From a virus, in IMG/VR virus record IMGVR_UViG_3300012532_000017, positions 1 to 21,428 of that record: a stretch of DNA of 21,428 bases, one strand, 5' to 3'. The position numbers and the translations under genes were made by a program. The notes beneath the pieces are model-generated. The model worked only from the letters and a program-made list of their open reading frames with translations. It had not been told where the DNA came from and ran no database searches. Positions 1-20,995 of this stretch are shown in pieces. Position 1 is the stretch's first letter. Each line of letters opens with the position of its first letter.

Positions 1-133
1 CCGCCCCCGCCTGCGCCGCCACCGTGCCAGCAAGCCCCCGCGCCGCATCGGTGTGCGCGCGCGAGAGGGCTTGCTGGCGGGTGAGGCCGAAGCCGAGAAC
101 CTGGGGAGTCGTTCGCTTCGAGATGCGGAGCAT
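1..133 (-). CDS. Partial CDS, N-terminus only, unknown function
   Basis: The gene starts with ATG directly before the window edge and gives 44 codons, beginning MLRISKRTTPQVLGFGLTRQ. A strong Shine-Dalgarno sequence (GGGAGGAG) lies in the last codons of the gp16-like gene, whose TAA stop abuts the ATG, so the two are translationally coupled. The visible part is basic and then Ala/Gly-rich, with no signal peptide or motif I recognise. In T7-like order, tail fibre or lysis genes would follow gp16, but nothing here proves either. The start is well supported; the function is unknown. Confidence 0.6.
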   Translation of the reverse strand, partial: MLRISKRTTPQVLGFGLTRQQALSRAHTDAARGLAGTVAAQAGA

Positions 134-3100
134 TTACTCCTCCCACATGTTGAACAGGCTCACTGGCTGCTGGTGGTTCATCTGCTGCCCGTACGTGAGG
201 CCCGAGACGACGTGCCCGTAGCGACCGCGTTCGAGGTCGCGACCGAGGTTGTGCATCACGTACCCGCCGGTCTTGCGCGCCTGGCCAAAGCCGGGCGAGC
301 CGCCGAGGATGAACAGCGCATCCATCGCGGACATGGCTGGGTTCTCGGAGTCGTACTGCGCCGTGCCCGCGATGTGCTTCTTCACGTTCGAGGCATCCCT
401 CATCAGCCGGTCAATGAGCGCGAAGCCGGGCGCCGTCTTCATGTTGGCCGGCTTCCCGTCGATCATGGAAAGGGCAGCGGGGCCGAGGATGGGTGCGCCG
501 TAGAGCGAAGTCAGCGTCGCCCTCTTCAGCGCCCACTCCGGCGCGTCCTCCGGCTTGCTCGGCCCGCGGTTCGCGAGGAAGTCACCGACGCCGCCGACCA
601 CGAGACCAAGAGCCACGATGTGGCCCGTGAACTTCGCGACCGCGGTGGCCTTGTCCATCTTCGTCGCGCCGGGCTCGCGCCAGGCGTCGAGCATGTTGAC
701 GACCTCCTGGCGGTGCATCCCGTAGACCCGGTTCGCGAAGCCGTACAGGAATGTCATCGCGCCCAGGAACCCCTTGTCGCGGAGCAGGGCGGCCTTGCCG
801 CCAACGTCGTGCGCCGGCATGAACTTGCGGAGCGTCGCGTCGGCGTCGCGAACAGCCTCGGCCTCCAGCGACCCGGCGGCGGACAGCTCATTGAACTTCG
901 CCAACCAGATGGACGTCGAGGACATCGCGTCCGTGCGCTCCATTGCCCAGTACGCCGCGGTCTCCACCTTGCGCTGGAGATCGCCGCGACCGGCGGCCAT
1001 CGAGCCCAGTTCGAGGCCGACGCTGTTGCCGTGGCCCTCGGCGCGGTACCGAAGCTCCGGCGAGAGGCGGAGTGCCTCGGCGCGGAGCGTCGGGTAGTGC
1101 GCCGCCAGCTTCACGGTGACGAGGGCCAGGTGCTTGGCCGAGACGTCGCCGGTCGCGAACGCCATAAGCGGGTTCGAGAGGTCGGACAGCGGAATGGCGA
1201 GGTTGAACCCGCACGCCGCCAGCGCGACCTTGCTCTTGATGGACGCCACCCAGCCGTTCACCGTCGCCATCGAGTCGGCGAGCGAGTCGGCCTGCTGCGA
1301 TGCGACGGCCTTCAGCCACGGCATGAACTGCTTCGCGTACTCCTTGCCCATCGTCTTCTGCACGAGGGACTCGAAGCGCGGGTCGAGGAACAGTCCGCCG
1401 ACCTGCTTCACGAACTTGCGGTACGCGACGTCGTGCAGTACCTGGCTGACGTGCGCGGGGACGACGCGCCAGTCGAGGTTGAGCAGGTCGGTCGCATTCT
1501 CCGAGCGCGCCTGCGCGTGCGTGGTTGCCGTCTTCGCGCCGCGGTAGTTCGGCGACATGAGCGCCGCGATGCCGGCCGCCTCCTGCTTCTCGCCGACGCG
1601 ACTCTCCGAGGGGACCCGGGAGTCGTAGCGCGCGGGGAAGTAGCCGCCCGCGAGGGTCAGCTCCTCGCCCATCTCGCCCGCCTCGCCAGCGCCGATGCGG
1701 ACCTTGAGCGGCGTCGCCTCGATGCGCTCCGGCGCGAGCCCCGTATCCTCACGGTGAACGCGCTCGATGTGCGGGTAGAGCTTCGACAGCGAGTTCCACA
1801 CGTCCTGCACCCAGAGCCACTCGGCCTTGGTCATGCGCTTCTGCAGCGCGTCCATGACCTGGCGCTCGGACCAGCCATACCCGTCGAGCATGCGCTGCTT
1901 GTTGCCGGCGTTGCCGAGGTTCAGGGCGATCATCCAGAGGTACGAGCGCGGGACCTCGTTGTCCTTCAGGAAGCTCTGCGCGTGCTCCGGCAGCGGGAGT
2001 TCGGCGGACAGGTCCGTCGTCCTCTCGTTCGCCCGGTCGCGCATGCGCTTCGGCATCGCGTCCCACTTCTCCTGCAGCCCTTCGAGGAAGTCGCGGGAGA
2101 GCTGCAGTTCGTAGTCGCGCGCCCTGAGGCGCTCGCCGACGAGCAGCTTCCACAGCGGGGCCTCGCGGTCGCCACCCACGAGCTGGGAGACGAGGTCCTC
2201 CATGTTCGTGAGGTTCGCGTCCATGGAGCTGAGCACGCGGCTCGCCACCTCGAAATACTTCGCCTTGCCGGGCGCGCGGTCGTACTTCCCTGCCTCGGGC
2301 AGGCGCTTCGCGCGCTCGGCCGTGTCATCGAGCAGCTCGGCGCGCTCCAGGGCGCGACCGGCGACGTCGACCTTCGTCTTGCCGGCGGCAGCATGGCGGA
2401 TGTTCTCAACCGCGTCCCGCAGGTTCAGCGCCTCGTCGACCGTCATGGTCTCGAAGGGGTGCGGCTGGGCGAGCAGGTCGCGGATGGACTGCGCGTCCCA
2501 CAGCCCGGACTGCAGGTTGCCCTGCGAGTCGCGAGCGACGCCAGCGGCGTCCCGCTCCATGCGCGCGAGCATCGACTCGAACGCGGCGGCGTTGGGGACC
2601 GTGCCCTCGCGCCCCTTGAGGAAGCCGGCGGCCTGGAGGATGGCGTCGCCGCCATCGGCGTACGACGCGTCGGCCTTGCCGAGCTTCGTGCGGGACGCGA
2701 CCTCAGCCATCGCCCGGAGGCGCTTGTCGGCGCGAGCGACCTCGACGCGACGGTCGCGGGCGGCGCGCCAGAGCAGCTTGTTGAGGATGACGTTGTCGTA
2801 CTCGGCGTACGCGCCCTCGTAGAACCTGTCGGCCATCTCCTGCTGGCCGCGGTCGCGCGCCTCGGCCGCCTTCGTCATCAGCCCGAAGGCGCGCTTCAGT
2901 GCGCCGCGCTCGGCGTCGAGGTGGTACCGCTCATTGAGCGTGTCGACGCGGGTGCCGTCCACGATACGCTTCGCGTTCATGCGAAGCACGGACATTGGCA
3001 TGTCCTGACCGAGGACGCGGACACCCTCGCCCTTCTTCGTGCCGCGCAGTGCGCGCGCGAGAGCGTCGTGGACGCGGACGGCCTCCTCAATGTCGGGCGC

Positions 3101-5983
3101 GTTATGCAGCCCGTCCTCGCCCACGGCCACGAGAGCGTCGTGGCTCTTCGCGAGCGCGGGGCCGAACGCCTCCTCGAACCGCGAGGTGGTCTCGCGCTCG
3201 ACGACGGCGTCCTTGGGCTCGGCATGCGCGAGGTCGAGGGCCAGCTCCTTGCCCGACGACTCCGGCGCGAACAGCGAGGCGAACTCATCGGGGTGCATGC
3301 CGCCCTTCTTGGCGATCATGCCCTTCTGCCTGAGCGCCTCGAACGCCTTCTTGCCGGCGACTTCGAGGACGGCCTCGCCGTCGAGTCGCACGGGCCGCCC
3401 GGCCTCGTCACGCAGCGCCTCGGGGAGCTGGCTCTTCGCGAACACCCTGCCGGTGCCCGGGTCGAGCAGCTCGCCGGCACGGAGGAAGTCGTGGGCGCGA
3501 TAGAGCGGCGAGGCGGAGACGGATGCGTGCGCCTCGGCCCTCATGCTCTCGCGGGCGTCGCGCAGCGCGCCCGTGGTCCCGCGTCCGTCGGACTTCGCGG
3601 TCTCGACATCAAGCCGCGCGCGAGCCTCGGCGTACTTCTGCTCGCGAACGGCTTCGAGCTGCGCGCGCTCCTCGGGCGTGAGGTTCAGCAGCGAGGCGAC
3701 ATCAACCGAGCGGTCGCGCGCGCGCATCGCCTCGACGGTGTCGGCGGCGGGGGCGGCAACGAGGGCGCGAGCCAGCTCCTGGGCGCCGATCGGCTTCCGC
3801 CGATTCAGCTTGCCGAGGTCGGTGGCGGCAAGCTCCTTAGGCGAGAGCACGTACCGGTCGGAGAGCGTGCCCTCCACGGGAACGAGCTTGAACGGGACGC
3901 CCTGCGCGATGAGCCGCTGGTACATGCGCTCCGAGGCGTCGGAGCGAGTCTTGTCGGAGACCCAGCCCTTGCCATCCTTCTTCGCGTCGACGAGCGCAGC
4001 GACGTACGACTCGGTCGCGAAGCCCTTGCCGCGCAGGGGCGCGTGGAGGGCCTCAGAGTCCTTGCCGGACCCATGGACGTAGCCGCTGACCGAGCGGTGG
4101 TCGGTGTACTCACCGTGCGGGTCGTTCTCCTCGACCGTGAGCCGCATCGGCGACTCAGGGTGTGTGTAGACGATCTGCCCGCCGTCGCGCGCCGAGGTGA
4201 CGGGTGACGCGCCGCCCAGAGCGGCGGCGGCGGCGCGCGCGGCGGCGCCGGCCTGGTTGAGCTTCACGAGCCTCTGAATGGTGTCGACCGTTTGCCGCTC
4301 GGTCATGCCGCCAAGGTCGGAGCGGACGTCGAGCGCGAGCGCCTTGTCGTGCCCGGCCAGGACCATCTTGGTGGCCCACTTCGACAGGGGCACCGCGACG
4401 TCGCCGCCGCCGGACGTGGCCGCGTCGTAGCCCTGGCCCTCGTCGCCGATTACCTTGGCCGCGACCTCGCGCGGGCTCACGCCCTCACCGGTCTTCGTGA
4501 AGTAGGCGTCCCACGCCTCCTTGGTCACGTACACCGTGCGCCCGGGGCCGATCTTGTTCACCAGCTCCTCGAACTTCTCGGGCGAGCGCGTGGCGAGCTT
4601 GGATGTGCGGGTGCCCTCGGCGACGTCGCGCAGGGCGGCGGCCTGGTTCTGCGACTCGCTCACGCGACCGAGGTCGGACATGAGGCCGCGGAAGGGCTTG
4701 TAGAGGGAGAGGGCCCAGAAGTCGGACAGGCCGGTGGTGAATCCGTGGCCGAAGGCGTCGGTGACGTTCCCGACATCGAAGCCCTCGCCGTGCGTGCTCT
4801 TCGCGGTCTCCATGGTCGCAGCGGCGACGGCGCTCTGCCCCGCCATTGCGAGCGCGCCCGAGGCCGCGTGCGACCCGTAGTCGAGCGCGAACTTGCGGAG
4901 GGCCAGCGGGATGGTCTCGCTGGCGAGGAGCTTCTCGGCCGTCTTCGGCAGCGCGGCCGCGAGGAGCTTGGTCGCCATCGGCGCCGTCGCCTTCGAGAGC
5001 ATGGCGCCGGGGCCGCCCGACATGAGCAGGCCGGTCGGCAGCGCGCCCGCGAGCGCGTAGCCGCGAGCCTCGTCCTCGGTGAGGAGCGGCTCGCCCGACG
5101 GGCCCTTCATCTCACGGAGCTGCCAGAACAGCGGGCCCGCGGTCTCGGACGACCAATAGGCCGTGCCGGCCGCAGCGCCGCCCACGCCAGCGCCGAGCGC
5201 AGCGCCGCCGATCGAGGCGGCCGTGCCCTTCACCATCTCGGGGCCCATCGTGGTGAGAAGGCGCGCGAGCTTCGCAACCTGGCGCGTGACGCCGTCCATC
5301 TCGTCGATGAAGTCGTTCGCGTGCGCAAGCCTCGCCTCGTTGATGCGGATGCGGTCCTGGCGCCCCTTCACCTCGTCGGGCGTCATCGGCCTGGTGGCCG
5401 GCATCTCCATCGGCCCGAGGTTCGGGTCGATGTACGTCTCCGTGCCCGGCGCGTCGGCAAGGCGGGTGCCGGTCAGCTCGGCCGTCTGCAGTTCGAGCGT
5501 CTCCCGCTGGAGCGCGCGCACGCTGAAGCCCTCGCGAATGGAACGCGAGAGCTGCTGCAGGACGTTCATGTCGCCCGCCACGAGCGCCTCGTGGCCGGGC
5601 TTCGCGACGAACTCAGCCAGCTCCGGGTGCTGTGCGGAGACCAGCTCCCAGTTCACGCCCTGTGCGTCGACCTCCCTCTTTACGCCCTCAAGGTTCGCCG
5701 CAACGAGGTCGGGCGAGAGGCCGGAGGCGGCCGCGTACTTGAAAACATCGGCCTGGCGCTGCGGGTCGAGCTTGGCGTTCGCCGCCTTGAAGCGCAGGAA
5801 TGCGGCGCGCTGCGATGAGCCGACCTCGCTGTCCACCGCGTCGGCGAGCGGGTCGGCCCCGGGCGCGCGCGGGAGCAGGGGCGCGGGCGGGGTGGACTCG
5901 ACGGGCGCGGCGGCGACGGGAGCCTGGGCCACGGGGGCGGACAGCTCCGCATCGACGGCGGTGGACAGCGGGTCGGCAATCAT
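134..5983 (-). CDS. gp16-like giant internal virion (ejection) protein with embedded GNAT-like domain
   Basis: This 1949-aa protein is the last and largest of a gp13-gp14-gp15-gp16 ejection series. In T7-like phages gp16 is ejected first and helps draw the genome into the cell. The start ATG has a GGAG site 8 bases upstream. Residues 1-60 are Ala/Pro-rich. Residues 250-275, 305-345 and 365-390 are Gly/Ala-rich hydrophobic stretches, and 1785-1805 and 1825-1840 are hydrophobic segments near the C-terminus, as expected for membrane insertion. Residues 600-715 look like an acetyltransferase of the GNAT fold: RGKGFA (651-656) fits the R/Q-x-x-G-x-G/A acetyl-CoA loop and is followed by a helix and a short strand. 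The rest is mostly charged helix. It is longer than T7 gp16 (about 1300 aa), and I see no lytic transglycosylase motif. The family call rests on position, size and composition; the GNAT domain is inference from the motif. Confidence 0.75.
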   Translation of the reverse strand: MIADPLSTAVDAELSAPVAQAPVAAAPVESTPPAPLLPRAPGADPLADAVDSEVGSSQRAAFLRFKAANAKLDPQRQADVFKYAAASGLSPDLVAANLEGVKREVDAQGVNWELVSAQHPELAEFVAKPGHEALVAGDMNVLQQLSRSIREGFSVRALQRETLELQTAELTGTRLADAPGTETYIDPNLGPMEMPATRPMTPDEVKGRQDRIRINEARLAHANDFIDEMDGVTRQVAKLARLLTTMGPEMVKGTAASIGGAALGAGVGGAAAGTAYWSSETAGPLFWQLREMKGPSGEPLLTEDEARGYALAGALPTGLLMSGGPGAMLSKATAPMATKLLAAALPKTAEKLLASETIPLALRKFALDYGSHAASGALAMAGQSAVAAATMETAKSTHGEGFDVGNVTDAFGHGFTTGLSDFWALSLYKPFRGLMSDLGRVSESQNQAAALRDVAEGTRTSKLATRSPEKFEELVNKIGPGRTVYVTKEAWDAYFTKTGEGVSPREVAAKVIGDEGQGYDAATSGGGDVAVPLSKWATKMVLAGHDKALALDVRSDLGGMTERQTVDTIQRLVKLNQAGAAARAAAAALGGASPVTSARDGGQIVYTHPESPMRLTVEENDPHGEYTDHRSVSGYVHGSGKDSEALHAPLRGKGFATESYVAALVDAKKDGKGWVSDKTRSDASERMYQRLIAQGVPFKLVPVEGTLSDRYVLSPKELAATDLGKLNRRKPIGAQELARALVAAPAADTVEAMRARDRSVDVASLLNLTPEERAQLEAVREQKYAEARARLDVETAKSDGRGTTGALRDARESMRAEAHASVSASPLYRAHDFLRAGELLDPGTGRVFAKSQLPEALRDEAGRPVRLDGEAVLEVAGKKAFEALRQKGMIAKKGGMHPDEFASLFAPESSGKELALDLAHAEPKDAVVERETTSRFEEAFGPALAKSHDALVAVGEDGLHNAPDIEEAVRVHDALARALRGTKKGEGVRVLGQDMPMSVLRMNAKRIVDGTRVDTLNERYHLDAERGALKRAFGLMTKAAEARDRGQQEMADRFYEGAYAEYDNVILNKLLWRAARDRRVEVARADKRLRAMAEVASRTKLGKADASYADGGDAILQAAGFLKGREGTVPNAAAFESMLARMERDAAGVARDSQGNLQSGLWDAQSIRDLLAQPHPFETMTVDEALNLRDAVENIRHAAAGKTKVDVAGRALERAELLDDTAERAKRLPEAGKYDRAPGKAKYFEVASRVLSSMDANLTNMEDLVSQLVGGDREAPLWKLLVGERLRARDYELQLSRDFLEGLQEKWDAMPKRMRDRANERTTDLSAELPLPEHAQSFLKDNEVPRSYLWMIALNLGNAGNKQRMLDGYGWSERQVMDALQKRMTKAEWLWVQDVWNSLSKLYPHIERVHREDTGLAPERIEATPLKVRIGAGEAGEMGEELTLAGGYFPARYDSRVPSESRVGEKQEAAGIAALMSPNYRGAKTATTHAQARSENATDLLNLDWRVVPAHVSQVLHDVAYRKFVKQVGGLFLDPRFESLVQKTMGKEYAKQFMPWLKAVASQQADSLADSMATVNGWVASIKSKVALAACGFNLAIPLSDLSNPLMAFATGDVSAKHLALVTVKLAAHYPTLRAEALRLSPELRYRAEGHGNSVGLELGSMAAGRGDLQRKVETAAYWAMERTDAMSSTSIWLAKFNELSAAGSLEAEAVRDADATLRKFMPAHDVGGKAALLRDKGFLGAMTFLYGFANRVYGMHRQEVVNMLDAWREPGATKMDKATAVAKFTGHIVALGLVVGGVGDFLANRGPSKPEDAPEWALKRATLTSLYGAPILGPAALSMIDGKPANMKTAPGFALIDRLMRDASNVKKHIAGTAQYDSENPAMSAMDALFILGGSPGFGQARKTGGYVMHNLGRDLERGRYGHVVSGLTYGQQMNHQQPVSLFNMWEE

Positions 5984-18173: not shown

Positions 18174-19472
18174 TTAATCTCCGCCCGCGAACGGGTCGTA
18201 TTCCGTGAGGCAGTGGTTGGAGGCGGCCGCCCGCGCGTCAGCGTTCAGCGAACGCGACATCAGCGGGGAGGCGAAGGTGAGCGCGAGCGCGTCGCCGAAG
18301 TCGGGGGACTTCAGGCCGCGCGACTTCATCGCGTCCTTCGACTCCAGCACGATGCGTGACTGCGCGTCGTACTTGTAGGTCGGCGAGGCGAGGTCGAGCT
18401 TGAGGCGCTCGTCGTCGGGGATGGTGCCGGCCTTGAGCCAGTCGGCCATCTCGCCCCACATCTGCGACCGCTTGTTGAGGTACTTGGGGTCCGACGAGCG
18501 CGAGCCGAAGTTGACGCCGACGACGCTGTGGCCGAGCTGGCGGAGCCGGTCGACGACGCCCGCACCGAGCCCGCCCTCGTCCACGAAGATGCCGTCGGGC
18601 ATCTCATTGATGGCGAGCGACGCGATTGCGTCTGCCGTCTCCATCGTGTCGGCGCCGCGGAGGTAGCGGAGCCCGTGGGCGGCGAGGCCCTGCCGCAGGA
18701 TGATGACCGTGGCGTCGTCGCCGAAGCGCGCGGGGTCGCAGGCCAGCGCCTTGCCCGCGTGATGGTATGCGCTCTGGGGGATGACGCGCTCGGAGGCGGC
18801 CTGCACCCGCTCCAGCGTGATGAGAATGTTGTCGCCGCCGGCCGAGAAGACGCAGCGGAACTCGGCCTCGAACTGGGCCTCGCTCATCCCGCGGCGCGCC
18901 GACTCGACCTCGTCGGGGTGGAGCGCGCCGGAGTCCTCGACCCGGAGCAGCAGCGTGTACCAGTCGGGGTCGCGGAGGGCCGCGTAGTACAGCTCGGAGA
19001 AGAGGTTGATGCCGTGGGCGGTGCCGATGAAGATGGCCCACCCGCGCTTGTCCGCGAGCGCCGGGCGGAGAATCTCGCCCCAAACCGACGGCACAATGTC
19101 AGCGACCTCGTCGACCACCAGGCCGTCGAGACCGATGCCGCGGAGCGCCTGCTCGTTGTCGGCGCCATAGAGCCGCACTCGCGCGCCGTTCGGCAGCTCG
19201 ACCTGCAGGTCCGATTCACGGACGGTGACGCCGGGAATCTTAAGGGCGTACTGCTTGAGGATGTCCCACGCAACCGCCTTGGCCTGAGCATAGAAGGGCG
19301 CGACGTAGGCGAAGCGTCCATTAGCCTTCGCGAGCGCGCCGAGCAGAAGCTCCAGAACGGCGAAGACCGTCTTCCCCGCACGACGGTGACAGACGAGCAC
19401 GTTGAAGCGTTTGCGCTCCGCGTGAACCTTCCGCTGCCACGGTCGGGGAGTGAAACCGAGATCGACGTTCAT
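18174..19472 (-). CDS. terL: Terminase large subunit
   Basis: This 432-aa packaging motor cuts phage DNA and pumps it into the head. Residues 28-35 (CHRRAGKT) are the Walker A motif, 117-122 (GLVVDE) the Walker B motif with its catalytic Glu, and 150-152 (GTA) the coupling motif. The C-terminal RNase H-like nuclease shows its acids at D246 (ACDPARFGDD), D298 (FVDEGG) and D394 (FGDALAL). Both halves look intact. ATG 19472 is chosen because the family usually begins near the FTPRPWQ motif; a GTG at 19529 would add 19 Pro/Arg-rich residues with no good ribosome binding site. It follows the tRNA-Asn gene and starts the packaging cluster. No small terminase subunit is recognised beside it. Confidence 0.93.
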   Translation of the reverse strand: MNVDLGFTPRPWQRKVHAERKRFNVLVCHRRAGKTVFAVLELLLGALAKANGRFAYVAPFYAQAKAVAWDILKQYALKIPGVTVRESDLQVELPNGARVRLYGADNEQALRGIGLDGLVVDEVADIVPSVWGEILRPALADKRGWAIFIGTAHGINLFSELYYAALRDPDWYTLLLRVEDSGALHPDEVESARRGMSEAQFEAEFRCVFSAGGDNILITLERVQAASERVIPQSAYHHAGKALACDPARFGDDATVIILRQGLAAHGLRYLRGADTMETADAIASLAINEMPDGIFVDEGGLGAGVVDRLRQLGHSVVGVNFGSRSSDPKYLNKRSQMWGEMADWLKAGTIPDDERLKLDLASPTYKYDAQSRIVLESKDAMKSRGLKSPDFGDALALTFASPLMSRSLNADARAAASNHCLTEYDPFAGGD

Positions 19473-19566
19473 GGATGGGCGAGCCCCCCGAGGTGTCGAC
19501 CCTCGCGCGCGCGGATTTGGAGTTCCCACACTAGGCGCCGGCCGAAGCTCGTGACGGTTGGTGAAG

Positions 19567-19642
19567 TGGCTGTGGGGGCTGGGGTCGAACCAGCGACGAG
19601 GCGATTAACAGTCGCCCGCTCTGCCTACTGAGCTACCCCACA
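19567..19642 (-). tRNA. tRNA-Asn (GTT)
   Basis: The sequence folds as a full cloverleaf. The acceptor TGTGGGG pairs with CCCCACA. The D arm is GCTC/GAGC. The anticodon stem GGCGA/TCGCC encloses the loop CTGTTAA with anticodon GTT. A 5-base variable loop follows, and the T arm is GCTGG-TTCGACC-CCAGC. The discriminator is G and CCA is encoded. It is read with the phage genes, between the tRNA-Gln and the terminase. Confidence 0.93.
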
Positions 19643-19775
19643 ACGGAATGGTTTGGCCCGGGGGACGATCGACCCCCGCGAAGCCGGCGCGCGCGCCGAA
19701 AGCCGCACTGAAATGTCGGGAGTCCGGCTCGCCCTTGCCGGCGTGCCCGCGGAGCGCCGCGGGACCCTCGATGAC

Positions 19776-19850
19776 TGGAAGGCGCCCGGGGAATCGAACC
19801 CCGATGAGCGGATTCAGAGACCGCTGTCTTCCCGTTAGACTGAGACGCCT
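19776..19850 (-). tRNA. tRNA-Gln (CTG)
   Basis: The acceptor AGGCGTC pairs with GGCGCCT (one G-T pair), the D arm is GTCT/AGAC, the anticodon stem GCGGT/TCCGC encloses CTCTGAA with anticodon CTG, and the T arm is CGGGG-TTCGATT-CCCCG. CCA is encoded. Oddities are three bases instead of two between acceptor and D stem, a T-T mismatch at the base of the anticodon loop, and a T discriminator, unlike the G usual for tRNA-Gln. Its first 16 bases overlap the end of the RuvC-like gene. Confidence 0.85.
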
Positions 19851-20353
19851 ACGAATGCGTGAATTGCTGCGACCGCATCGGCGAGGTGCTCGTGCAGGTC
19901 GCGACGCCGGGGCCAGATGACCTCGGGGTACTGCTCGCGCACTGCCGCGATCATCTCGTCCTTCTTCGCGGTCTGGTTGCCGGTGAGCGCGCGCTTCAGC
20001 GCCATCGGGCTCTTGCCCTCGACGGGCAGGTTGTAGCGGGCGGCCGTAGCGGCGATGACGCCCCAGCTCATGGAGAGCATGGCGGCGGCGCGCGCGTCGC
20101 GCGGGTGGCTCATGGCCTCGGCGACGATGCGGCTCGGCTTCTCACGCTCGATGACCTCGACGAGCGCGTCGGCGACCTCGCGCGCGCGCCGGACGTTGTC
20201 GCCGGCCGCGGTGCCCTCGGAGCACTTCGTCGTCTCGATGACGGCGCCGAAGATGATGCGGGGCTTCGAGCCGGCGGGGACGTGGGCGAGGGCCAGGCCC
20301 ATGTGCGCGAGGCCGCCGTCGATGCCGAGGACGACCTCGGGGGCGGAGGCCAT
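19835..20353 (-). CDS. ruvC: RuvC-like Holliday junction resolvase
   Basis: The 172-aa protein is close to E. coli RuvC in length. The four metal-binding residues are present: D12 in VVLGIDGG, E79 in RIVAEAMS, and H156 and D159 in HEHLADAVAAI (H-x-x-D, as in Thermus RuvC). The basic stretch KSPMALKRALTGNQTAKKDE, before the last helix, fits the family's DNA-binding part. It would cut branched replication intermediates, which block packaging; the terminase lies just downstream after two tRNAs. ATG 20353 has GGGG 8 bases upstream; a GTG at 20362 would add three residues. The C-terminus stops just after the catalytic helix because its last five codons and TAA lie within the tRNA-Gln gene. Confidence 0.88.
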   Translation of the reverse strand: MASAPEVVLGIDGGLAHMGLALAHVPAGSKPRIIFGAVIETTKCSEGTAAGDNVRRAREVADALVEVIEREKPSRIVAEAMSHPRDARAAAMLSMSWGVIAATAARYNLPVEGKSPMALKRALTGNQTAKKDEMIAAVREQYPEVIWPRRRDLHEHLADAVAAIHAFVGVSV

Positions 20354-20354
20354 G

Positions 20355-20672
20355 TCAGCCACCCCAGCCGATCTTGCCCTGGCCGTCGGAATTGAGGCCG
20401 CGGTAGGGCGTCACGGCGGGCTCGCCGGCAGGGATGGCGGGAGCCGTGGCGGCCGGGCCGGCGTCGACCACGTAGCGCGGGTTGACGGGCGTCCACATCG
20501 GGACGACGGGCGGTATCATCGGGGCCGGGTCCACGGTGCTGGCGCCAGTGGTGATGACGTACGGGGCGGTCGGGACCGGCACCCACGGGAGGGCGGGCGC
20601 CGTCGGACCGTACGGCGAGACATCGAAGGGCGGCAGCGTCCTGCCGCAGTGTGGGCAGAAGTTCCAGTTCAT
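20355..20672 (-). CDS. Small zinc-ribbon-like, Pro-rich protein
   Basis: This 105-aa protein starts MNWNFCPHCGRTLPP: one CPHCG knuckle (C6, C9) typical of zinc ribbons, then a long Pro-rich region (PTAPALPWVPVPTAP, DPAPMIPPVVPMWTPV) without a second Cys pair. A full zinc site would therefore need a partner or dimer. There is no signal or membrane segment. Its ATG shares one base with the TGA of the upstream gene, and its stop lies one base before the RuvC ATG. Small knuckle proteins of this kind are frequent among phage accessory genes, but I cannot assign a role. Confidence 0.75.
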   Translation of the reverse strand: MNWNFCPHCGRTLPPFDVSPYGPTAPALPWVPVPTAPYVITTGASTVDPAPMIPPVVPMWTPVNPRYVVDAGPAATAPAIPAGEPAVTPYRGLNSDGQGKIGWGG

Positions 20673-20995
20673 CAGGACACCGTGAGCGCGGCGAGCGCGA
20701 AAGCGAGGAGGGCGGCGGCGCCCGCGACGCGCGTGGCGTTACGGAGCGTGAAGCGGCTGCCGGCGTACGGCGGCTCGACCATCTCGCCGTGGTCGCACGG
20801 GCCGATGAGGTCGAGGCGGATGCGAGCCTCCTCGTCCGTCGCGCCGACGGCGGCGGGGAAGCGGCCGCACACGTCGCAGGTCCGATCGCGGTCAGTGACC
20901 ATGTGCGGGGGTGACCCGAAGATGCGGTCGAAGTTCTCGCGGTACGCGTCGGTGGCCGGCATGCTGCGGAGCCCCTGCGTCTGGCGGCCGCTCAC
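20672..20995 (-). CDS. CxxC protein with C-terminal membrane segment
   Basis: This 107-aa protein starts at GTG 20995, which overlaps the TGA of the upstream gene as GTGA and has GGAGG 7 bases upstream. It has C40 and C43 (CDVCGR) and later C67 and H69 (PCDHG), a spacing that could bind zinc. The last 18 residues (VAGAAALLAFALAALTVS) form a hydrophobic segment right at the C-terminus, as in tail-anchored proteins, so the zinc-like part would face the cytoplasm. I do not recognise the family. A role at the host membrane is inferred from topology only. Confidence 0.7.
   Translation of the reverse strand: MSGRQTQGLRSMPATDAYRENFDRIFGSPPHMVTDRDRTCDVCGRFPAAVGATDEEARIRLDLIGPCDHGEMVEPPYAGSRFTLRNATRVAGAAALLAFALAALTVS

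Follow-up and report, generated by a model that had tools for sequence, protein, structure and literature searches.

Gene neighborhood of the ruvC-like gene and the tRNA pair

The window analyzed here is a virus record of 21,428 bases with a G+C content of about 70%. According to Pfam and PHROG profile matches, its minus strand encodes proteins of the tail, the head-tail connector and the capsid as well as the terminase. Two tRNA genes were detected between a ruvC-like gene and the gene of the terminase large subunit (Table 1). The terminase was assigned from PF03237 (E = 1.4e-8) and PHROG 2 (E = 3.9e-48) with a 451-aa frame from an upstream GTG at 19529; the start retained here, ATG 19472, was chosen from the alignment with relatives (59-65% identity). 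For the ruvC-like gene, an alternative GTG start at 20362 would give a protein of 175 aa. Elsewhere in the window, a 1401-aa open frame on the plus strand (2-4207) lies opposite a 1949-aa gene-like frame on the minus strand (134-5983), and is probably a by-product of the high G+C content.

Table 1. Features at the ruvC-terminase junction of the window
Feature	Coordinates	Strand	Details
ruvC-like gene (Holliday junction resolvase family)	19835..20353	-	ATG 20353, TAA 19837-19835, 172 aa
tRNA-Gln(CUG), 75 nt, CCA encoded	19776..19850	-	ARAGORN; Rfam RF00005 41.6 bits
tRNA-Asn(GUU), second of the two tRNAs at this junction	19567..19642	-	ARAGORN; Rfam 62 bits
Terminase large subunit	18174..19472	-	Next protein gene downstream of ruvC and the tRNAs
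ruvC/tRNA-Gln overlap, 16 bases	19835..19850	-	Identity verified by script

Both tRNAs scored above the Rfam cut-off of 29 bits. ARAGORN, Rfam and the fold together support the cloverleaf, the CUG anticodon and the encoded CCA of tRNA-Gln, whose acceptor stem has seven pairs. The cloverleaf is also its minimum-energy fold, and 9 of 200 shuffled sequences folded equally well or better. Two further viral contigs share a 17-base stretch of its anticodon arm, in each case within a tRNA-Gln(CUG). The identity bases for glutamine charging are the pairs 1-72, 2-71 and 3-70, the anticodon and base 73; at these positions the tRNA has a weak 1-72 pair, G2-C71, G3-C70 and the CUG anticodon, but U at base 73. 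By its Rfam score, acceptor pairs and encoded CCA, the tRNA-Gln looks sound. An extra base between the acceptor and D stems is a little unusual and, together with an Rfam score lower than that of tRNA-Asn, could indicate a tRNA that is drifting or non-functional. In nine coding sequences of the window, glutamine is encoded by CAG 207 times vs CAA twice, and asparagine by AAC 136 times vs AAT 13 times. From this codon usage, the tRNA pair most likely serves the translation of a genome that writes glutamine almost only as CAG.

The ruvC-like gene ends inside the tRNA-Gln gene

A script comparison showed that the first 16 bases of tRNA-Gln are the last 16 bases of ruvC on the same strand. The ruvC codons GGC GTC TCA GTC TAA correspond to tRNA bases 2-16, and tRNA base 1 is the third base of a Val codon, GTA. 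The 16 shared bases reported in the earlier note were thus recovered, but not its five whole codons, since only four (G V S V) lie entirely in the overlap, together with the stop and the last base of the Val codon before them. The Rfam alignment of tRNA-Gln starts at 19849, giving an overlap of 15 bases, and the ARAGORN start at 19850 gives 16. From a direct reading of the sequence letters we prefer the ARAGORN start, because seven acceptor pairs, U73 and the encoded CCA result from it. Neither start lies below 19835, the limit set in the earlier note. A wrong 5' end of tRNA-Gln was rejected as an explanation, as the Rfam start alters the overlap by just one base. With the ARAGORN tRNA, the ruvC frame and the identity over 16 bases, the overlap is real. 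It is also more than a chance frame, the ruvC frame being a real gene and both tRNAs scoring above the Rfam cut-off. No bases are common to tRNA-Asn and ruvC.

The RuvC-like protein is not cut short

The protein matched Pfam family PF02075 (E = 3.7e-11, 43.6 bits vs a cut-off of 22.2) and PHROG 159 (E = 1.9e-27), with the family profile covering its core, and solved RuvC structures were also matched with the family profile. Its scores were below the NCBIfam equivalog cut-offs (NF000711, 56.2 of 163 bits; TIGR00228, 23.7 of 100.65 bits), and the product is therefore called RuvC-like and not cellular RuvC. The best match in named phages, among the 40 of 171 records listed, shares 34.5% identity over 94%. 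Residues D12, E79, H156 and D159, which we take to be catalytic, are invariant in five RuvC sequences and align with Asp, Glu, His and Asp of the solved RuvC 6s16. The protein is by homology a member of the RuvC-like Holliday junction resolvase family, with junction cutting as its predicted activity. It resembles the phage resolvases of PHROG 159 and PF02075 in scoring above the Pfam cut-off and in keeping the active-site Asp, Glu, His and Asp, but differs in that the 3' end of its gene lies within a tRNA. The codons for all four residues are located upstream of tRNA-Gln.

Relatives were sought with a RuvC profile, a RuvC DNA pattern (12 stretches) and a terminase profile in viral contigs (best 80 of 566). 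At least five contigs, L003, L004, L005, L009 and L010, carry this RuvC adjoining this terminase. The 3' end of ruvC in L010 equals that in L003, so four different junctions were counted (L003, L004, L005 and L009). Three of the relatives have a RuvC 67-71% identical to that of the window, and L009 has one that is 57% identical. In the former, one RuvC ends at the last residue of the window protein and the others 3 and 11 residues later. Counted after a conserved H-x-F, five residues remain in the window (HAFVGVSV, then the stop) and in L004 (HAFHGVTP, then the stop), eight in L005 (HAFTWGMEVPA, then the stop), 16 in L003 (HAFIGVGASTPLPPGRRIL, then the stop) and 29 in L009. The statement in the earlier note that RuvC stops soon after its last catalytic Asp is correct, but the relatives stop likewise. 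The proposed loss of a C-terminal tail did not hold: L004, which lacks the tRNA, ends at the identical residue and L005 is only three residues longer, which rules out a truncated RuvC. As these alignments indicate, RuvC is not cut short and tail length is variable in the family.

The junction between ruvC and the terminase gene is packed in relatives

No tRNA was called by ARAGORN between RuvC and terminase in any of the five relative contigs, and no further phage of the family among them has the overlap in intact form. The junctions of L003, L004 and L005 showed no tRNA traces (289, 444 and 93 of 500 shuffles, respectively, aligned equally well). In 19 bacterial and archaeal terminase loci, neither a RuvC match at E 1e-4 nor a tRNA was found. 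At each of the four different junctions, the stop of RuvC shares bases with the start codon of the open frame that follows, as TAG/GTG in L003, where this frame is the terminase, as TGA/ATG in L004 and as GTGA in L005 and L009. The junction is therefore always packed; the neighbor that shares bases with ruvC is an open frame in the relatives and a tRNA in the window. The next open frames in L004, L005 and L009 are short (52-59 aa), and those of L005 and L009 look alike by eye. These last two (L005 3010-3168, 52 aa; L009 4414-4593, 59 aa) lie between RuvC and terminase, end in ...LGPF...WR and have a GTG start overlapping the RuvC TGA. Nothing similar was seen by eye in the three minus-strand frames of the intergenic stretch of the window.

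The Gly-Val codons at the end of ruvC read GGCGTC in the window and in L003, and GGGGTC in L004. As L003 and L004 have them without a tRNA there, these codons belong to ruvC. The arrival of a tRNA at the 3' end of ruvC, suggested in the earlier note, agrees with the five relatives free of an ARAGORN tRNA and with the four packed junctions. From these comparisons we infer an insertion of the tRNAs in the lineage of the window rather than a loss in the relatives.

The tRNA supplies the stop codon

The TAA of ruvC is formed by tRNA-Gln bases 14-16, in the D arm/D-loop. Given the extra base before the D stem, these are positions 13-15 in canonical numbering, and A14 among them is nearly invariant. 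Of 544 viral tRNAs, 226 have a stop triplet beginning at base 8 and 103 have one beginning at base 13. In the frame from tRNA base 2, which is that of ruvC, 290 of the 544 (53%) contain a stop that begins no later than base 25, vs 27% of shuffled sequences; the corresponding values for the other two frames are 41% vs 30% and 25% vs 28%. A tRNA landing on a gene end would therefore often supply a stop, and since the TAA consists of D-loop bases, the tRNA appears to have brought its own stop to ruvC.

Other viral genes ending inside tRNAs

To place the overlap among other viral tRNAs, we used a sample of 204 loci, 81 of them obtained via a RuvC or terminase match and 122 via tRNA-Gln patterns (among the matches listed), plus the window; the loci were picked mostly for tRNA-Gln, not at random. 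Its 545 tRNAs comprise 472 distinct sequences, so that not all are independent. Setting aside 16 tRNAs within 330 bases of the upstream end left 529 assessable ones. For 22 of these, including that of the window, the longest nearby same-strand frame of at least 100 aa ends inside the tRNA. A fuller list holds 23 frames of at least 100 aa, and the 13 of them that cross other tRNAs are probably not genes. When frames of at least 60 aa were considered, 76 ended in a tRNA, and 23 of the 75 other than that of the window were compared with PHROGs and/or Pfam. Of the frames compared, 22 were the complete set that runs across no other tRNA, and one does run across another; the remaining 52 cross another tRNA and were left out.

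Family matches were obtained for five of the 23 frames (two in L157 and one each in L219, L193 and L120). The two in L157 are well supported: a PD-(D/E)XK gene ends in tRNA-Asn and an HNH gene in tRNA-Arg, both at tRNA base 10. In L219, a phosphoesterase gene ends with a TAG at base 18 of tRNA-Thr. In L193, an HNH gene overlaps a tRNA by 57 bases, and its family match reaches only about the tRNA border. The L120 frame (PHROG 26944, 10-base overlap) was set aside as doubtful support, having a low-complexity look and overlapping opposite-strand frames; it is unannotated in the three Pseudomonas phage records examined. By homology, two to four genes other than ruvC are thus recognized as ending inside a tRNA. 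A gene ending inside a tRNA is uncommon, though not unique; the lower bound for its frequency is below 1% of tRNAs. In the literature searched, from which subscription journals were mostly absent, we encountered no description of a phage gene with its end in a tRNA, a negative that carries little weight. The L157 and L219 genes resemble ruvC in lying on the same strand as the tRNA, matching a known family up to or near their end and taking their stop from the 5' bases of the tRNA. Unlike in the window, their overlaps measure 10, 10 and 18 bases and their stops are all TAG; they are unrelated genes from two contigs.

Some further features were observed in viral records. L219, a viral contig with 27 tRNAs, encodes a CUA-anticodon tRNA (4275-4346; tRNA-Pyl in ARAGORN). 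TAG may be read as an amino acid in this contig, and, given this tRNA, the stop of the phosphoesterase gene may be read through. ARAGORN called a tmRNA in Stenotrophomonas phage vB_Sm_QDWS359 (L245, 1937-2354), where the record has an opposite-strand hypothetical protein. In Gordonia phage GMA4 (L242, 2503-2530), a T-arm, acceptor strand and CCA lie between Orf41 and Orf42, where neither ARAGORN nor the annotation has a tRNA.

Possible effects of tRNA processing on ruvC

Mitochondria complete stop codons by polyadenylation. Human mitochondria, as described in PMC4394434, generally have protein genes bordered by tRNAs within a shared transcript. The window is like these compact mRNA-tRNA junctions of the tRNA punctuation model in that a tRNA directly borders a protein gene; in mitochondria, RNase P and RNase Z excise the tRNA (PMC4394434). 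Unlike this punctuation, the stop of ruvC is formed by tRNA bases 14-16 and a cut would leave a non-stop mRNA. The system also differs in being that of a phage, in which such processing is putative.

The earlier note had raised the possibility that processing limits RuvC synthesis. RNase P cutting at the 5' end of the tRNA would strip the RuvC stop, the non-stop product would be tagged and destroyed, and tRNA maturation would limit RuvC, while ribosomes finishing RuvC would keep the tRNA unfolded. The geometry is suitable, as a cut at 19850/19851 would detach the final 16 bases of ruvC together with its stop, downstream of every catalytic codon. Co-transcription is plausible too, since no promoter- or terminator-like minus-strand site was found in 19400-20800 by a consensus scan, a method that misses many phage promoters and terminators. 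Against such a switch, the intact overlap was found in none of the five relative contigs. Moreover, any gene ending inside a tRNA would lose its stop likewise, and others exist. We consider this mechanism improbable. Slightly more doubtful still is the idea that RNase P turns off a phage resolvase by removing its stop codon, with ruvC translation and tRNA-Gln maturation mutually exclusive on one transcript. The stop-less cut mRNA follows from the geometry alone, and regulation by the cut is putative.

History of the junction

In L009, positions 4367-4394 contain a T-arm and acceptor strand without mismatch, followed by CCA. They lie in the appropriate orientation within the RuvC frame, which continues to a TGA at 4415-4417. 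This pattern occurred once in 200 shuffles of the 10.7-kb L009 locus (one strand). Across 77 further terminase loci (1.13 Mb, counting both strands), its single occurrence was the 3' end of the ARAGORN-called tRNA of L027. The L009 codon aligned with the TAA of the window is CAA. Counted from the first base of the Gly codon after H-x-F-x, the L009 piece starts 36 bases on, vs 46 in the window.

A tRNA could therefore have adjoined ruvC at its 3' end already in the common ancestor of the window and L009; L009 would keep a damaged copy of it, read through by RuvC, and L003, L004 and L005 would have lost it. This history is a serious candidate, somewhat short of an even chance. It draws on the secure T-arm, acceptor strand and CCA near the same place in the L009 frame, and on the terminase tree, in which the window lies outside and L009 branches first among the rest (supports 100/99 and 93/91), an order compatible with a single gain and a single loss. 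From the RuvC tree, the branching order does not emerge. Other observations also weigh against this history. In L009 only the 28-base 3' end is statistically secure, and the proposed 5' acceptor strand pairs at five of seven positions by eye, which was judged easy by chance. Direct alignment with the window is weak (57 of 1000 shuffles were as good), and homology of the piece to the window tRNA by local alignment was rejected as not significant. No Rfam tRNA family match was listed at the piece with E up to 1; the matches shown were mascRNA (20.5 bits) and tmRNA (13.7 bits), both below cut-off, in a listing that omitted one lower-scoring tRNA-clan match. The piece could also be an attachment-site fragment or an independent insertion. 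Still, it may mean that the tRNA is ancestral and was lost in relatives, which counts against a fresh gain in the lineage of the window.

The tRNA sequence at the end of ruvC might alternatively be the relic of an attachment site, derived from site-specific integration at a host tRNA gene. Phage attP sites typically carry the 3' half of a tRNA, according to PMC10865867, and a secure 3' end only is what L009 has; two of the five relative records also match the tyrosine integrase family. The window differs from such tRNA-linked integration, as PMC10865867 presents it, in having two whole tRNAs, with no 3' halves, and no integrase match (PF00589). Its record, possibly a fragment, shows no tRNA 3' half beside an integrase gene. 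In the two relatives, whose records may be fragments too, the integrases lie about 15 kb and 27 kb from RuvC, and the 6 kb around each holds neither an ARAGORN tRNA nor a T-arm with CCA. Of the explanations weighed, we regard this one as the least likely.

A packed junction with a probably borrowed stop

Ordinary genome compaction is the most likely explanation, with a probability of roughly 80%: the overlap, itself real, would reflect tight packing and a borrowed stop rather than control of RuvC. A compact tailed-phage junction, with ruvC followed by the terminase gene, would have gained the tRNA pair Gln-CUG and Asn-GUU precisely where ruvC ends. On its acceptor strand, tRNA-Gln would coincide with Gly-Val codons present also in relatives that lack the tRNA, and the UAA within the tRNA would close the ruvC frame, giving a protein of normal length without a stop of its own. 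Such an overlap would be tolerated because the residues past the last catalytic one vary in the family; with the tail of RuvC free to vary, it is cheap. One transcript would yield either full-length RuvC mRNA or mature tRNA-Gln, not both, and we infer that this is a tolerated cost and not a selected switch. The locus would thus be a clean example of how a phage gene can have a tRNA on its 3' end and remain unharmed, since the 5' regions of tRNAs carry stop triplets.
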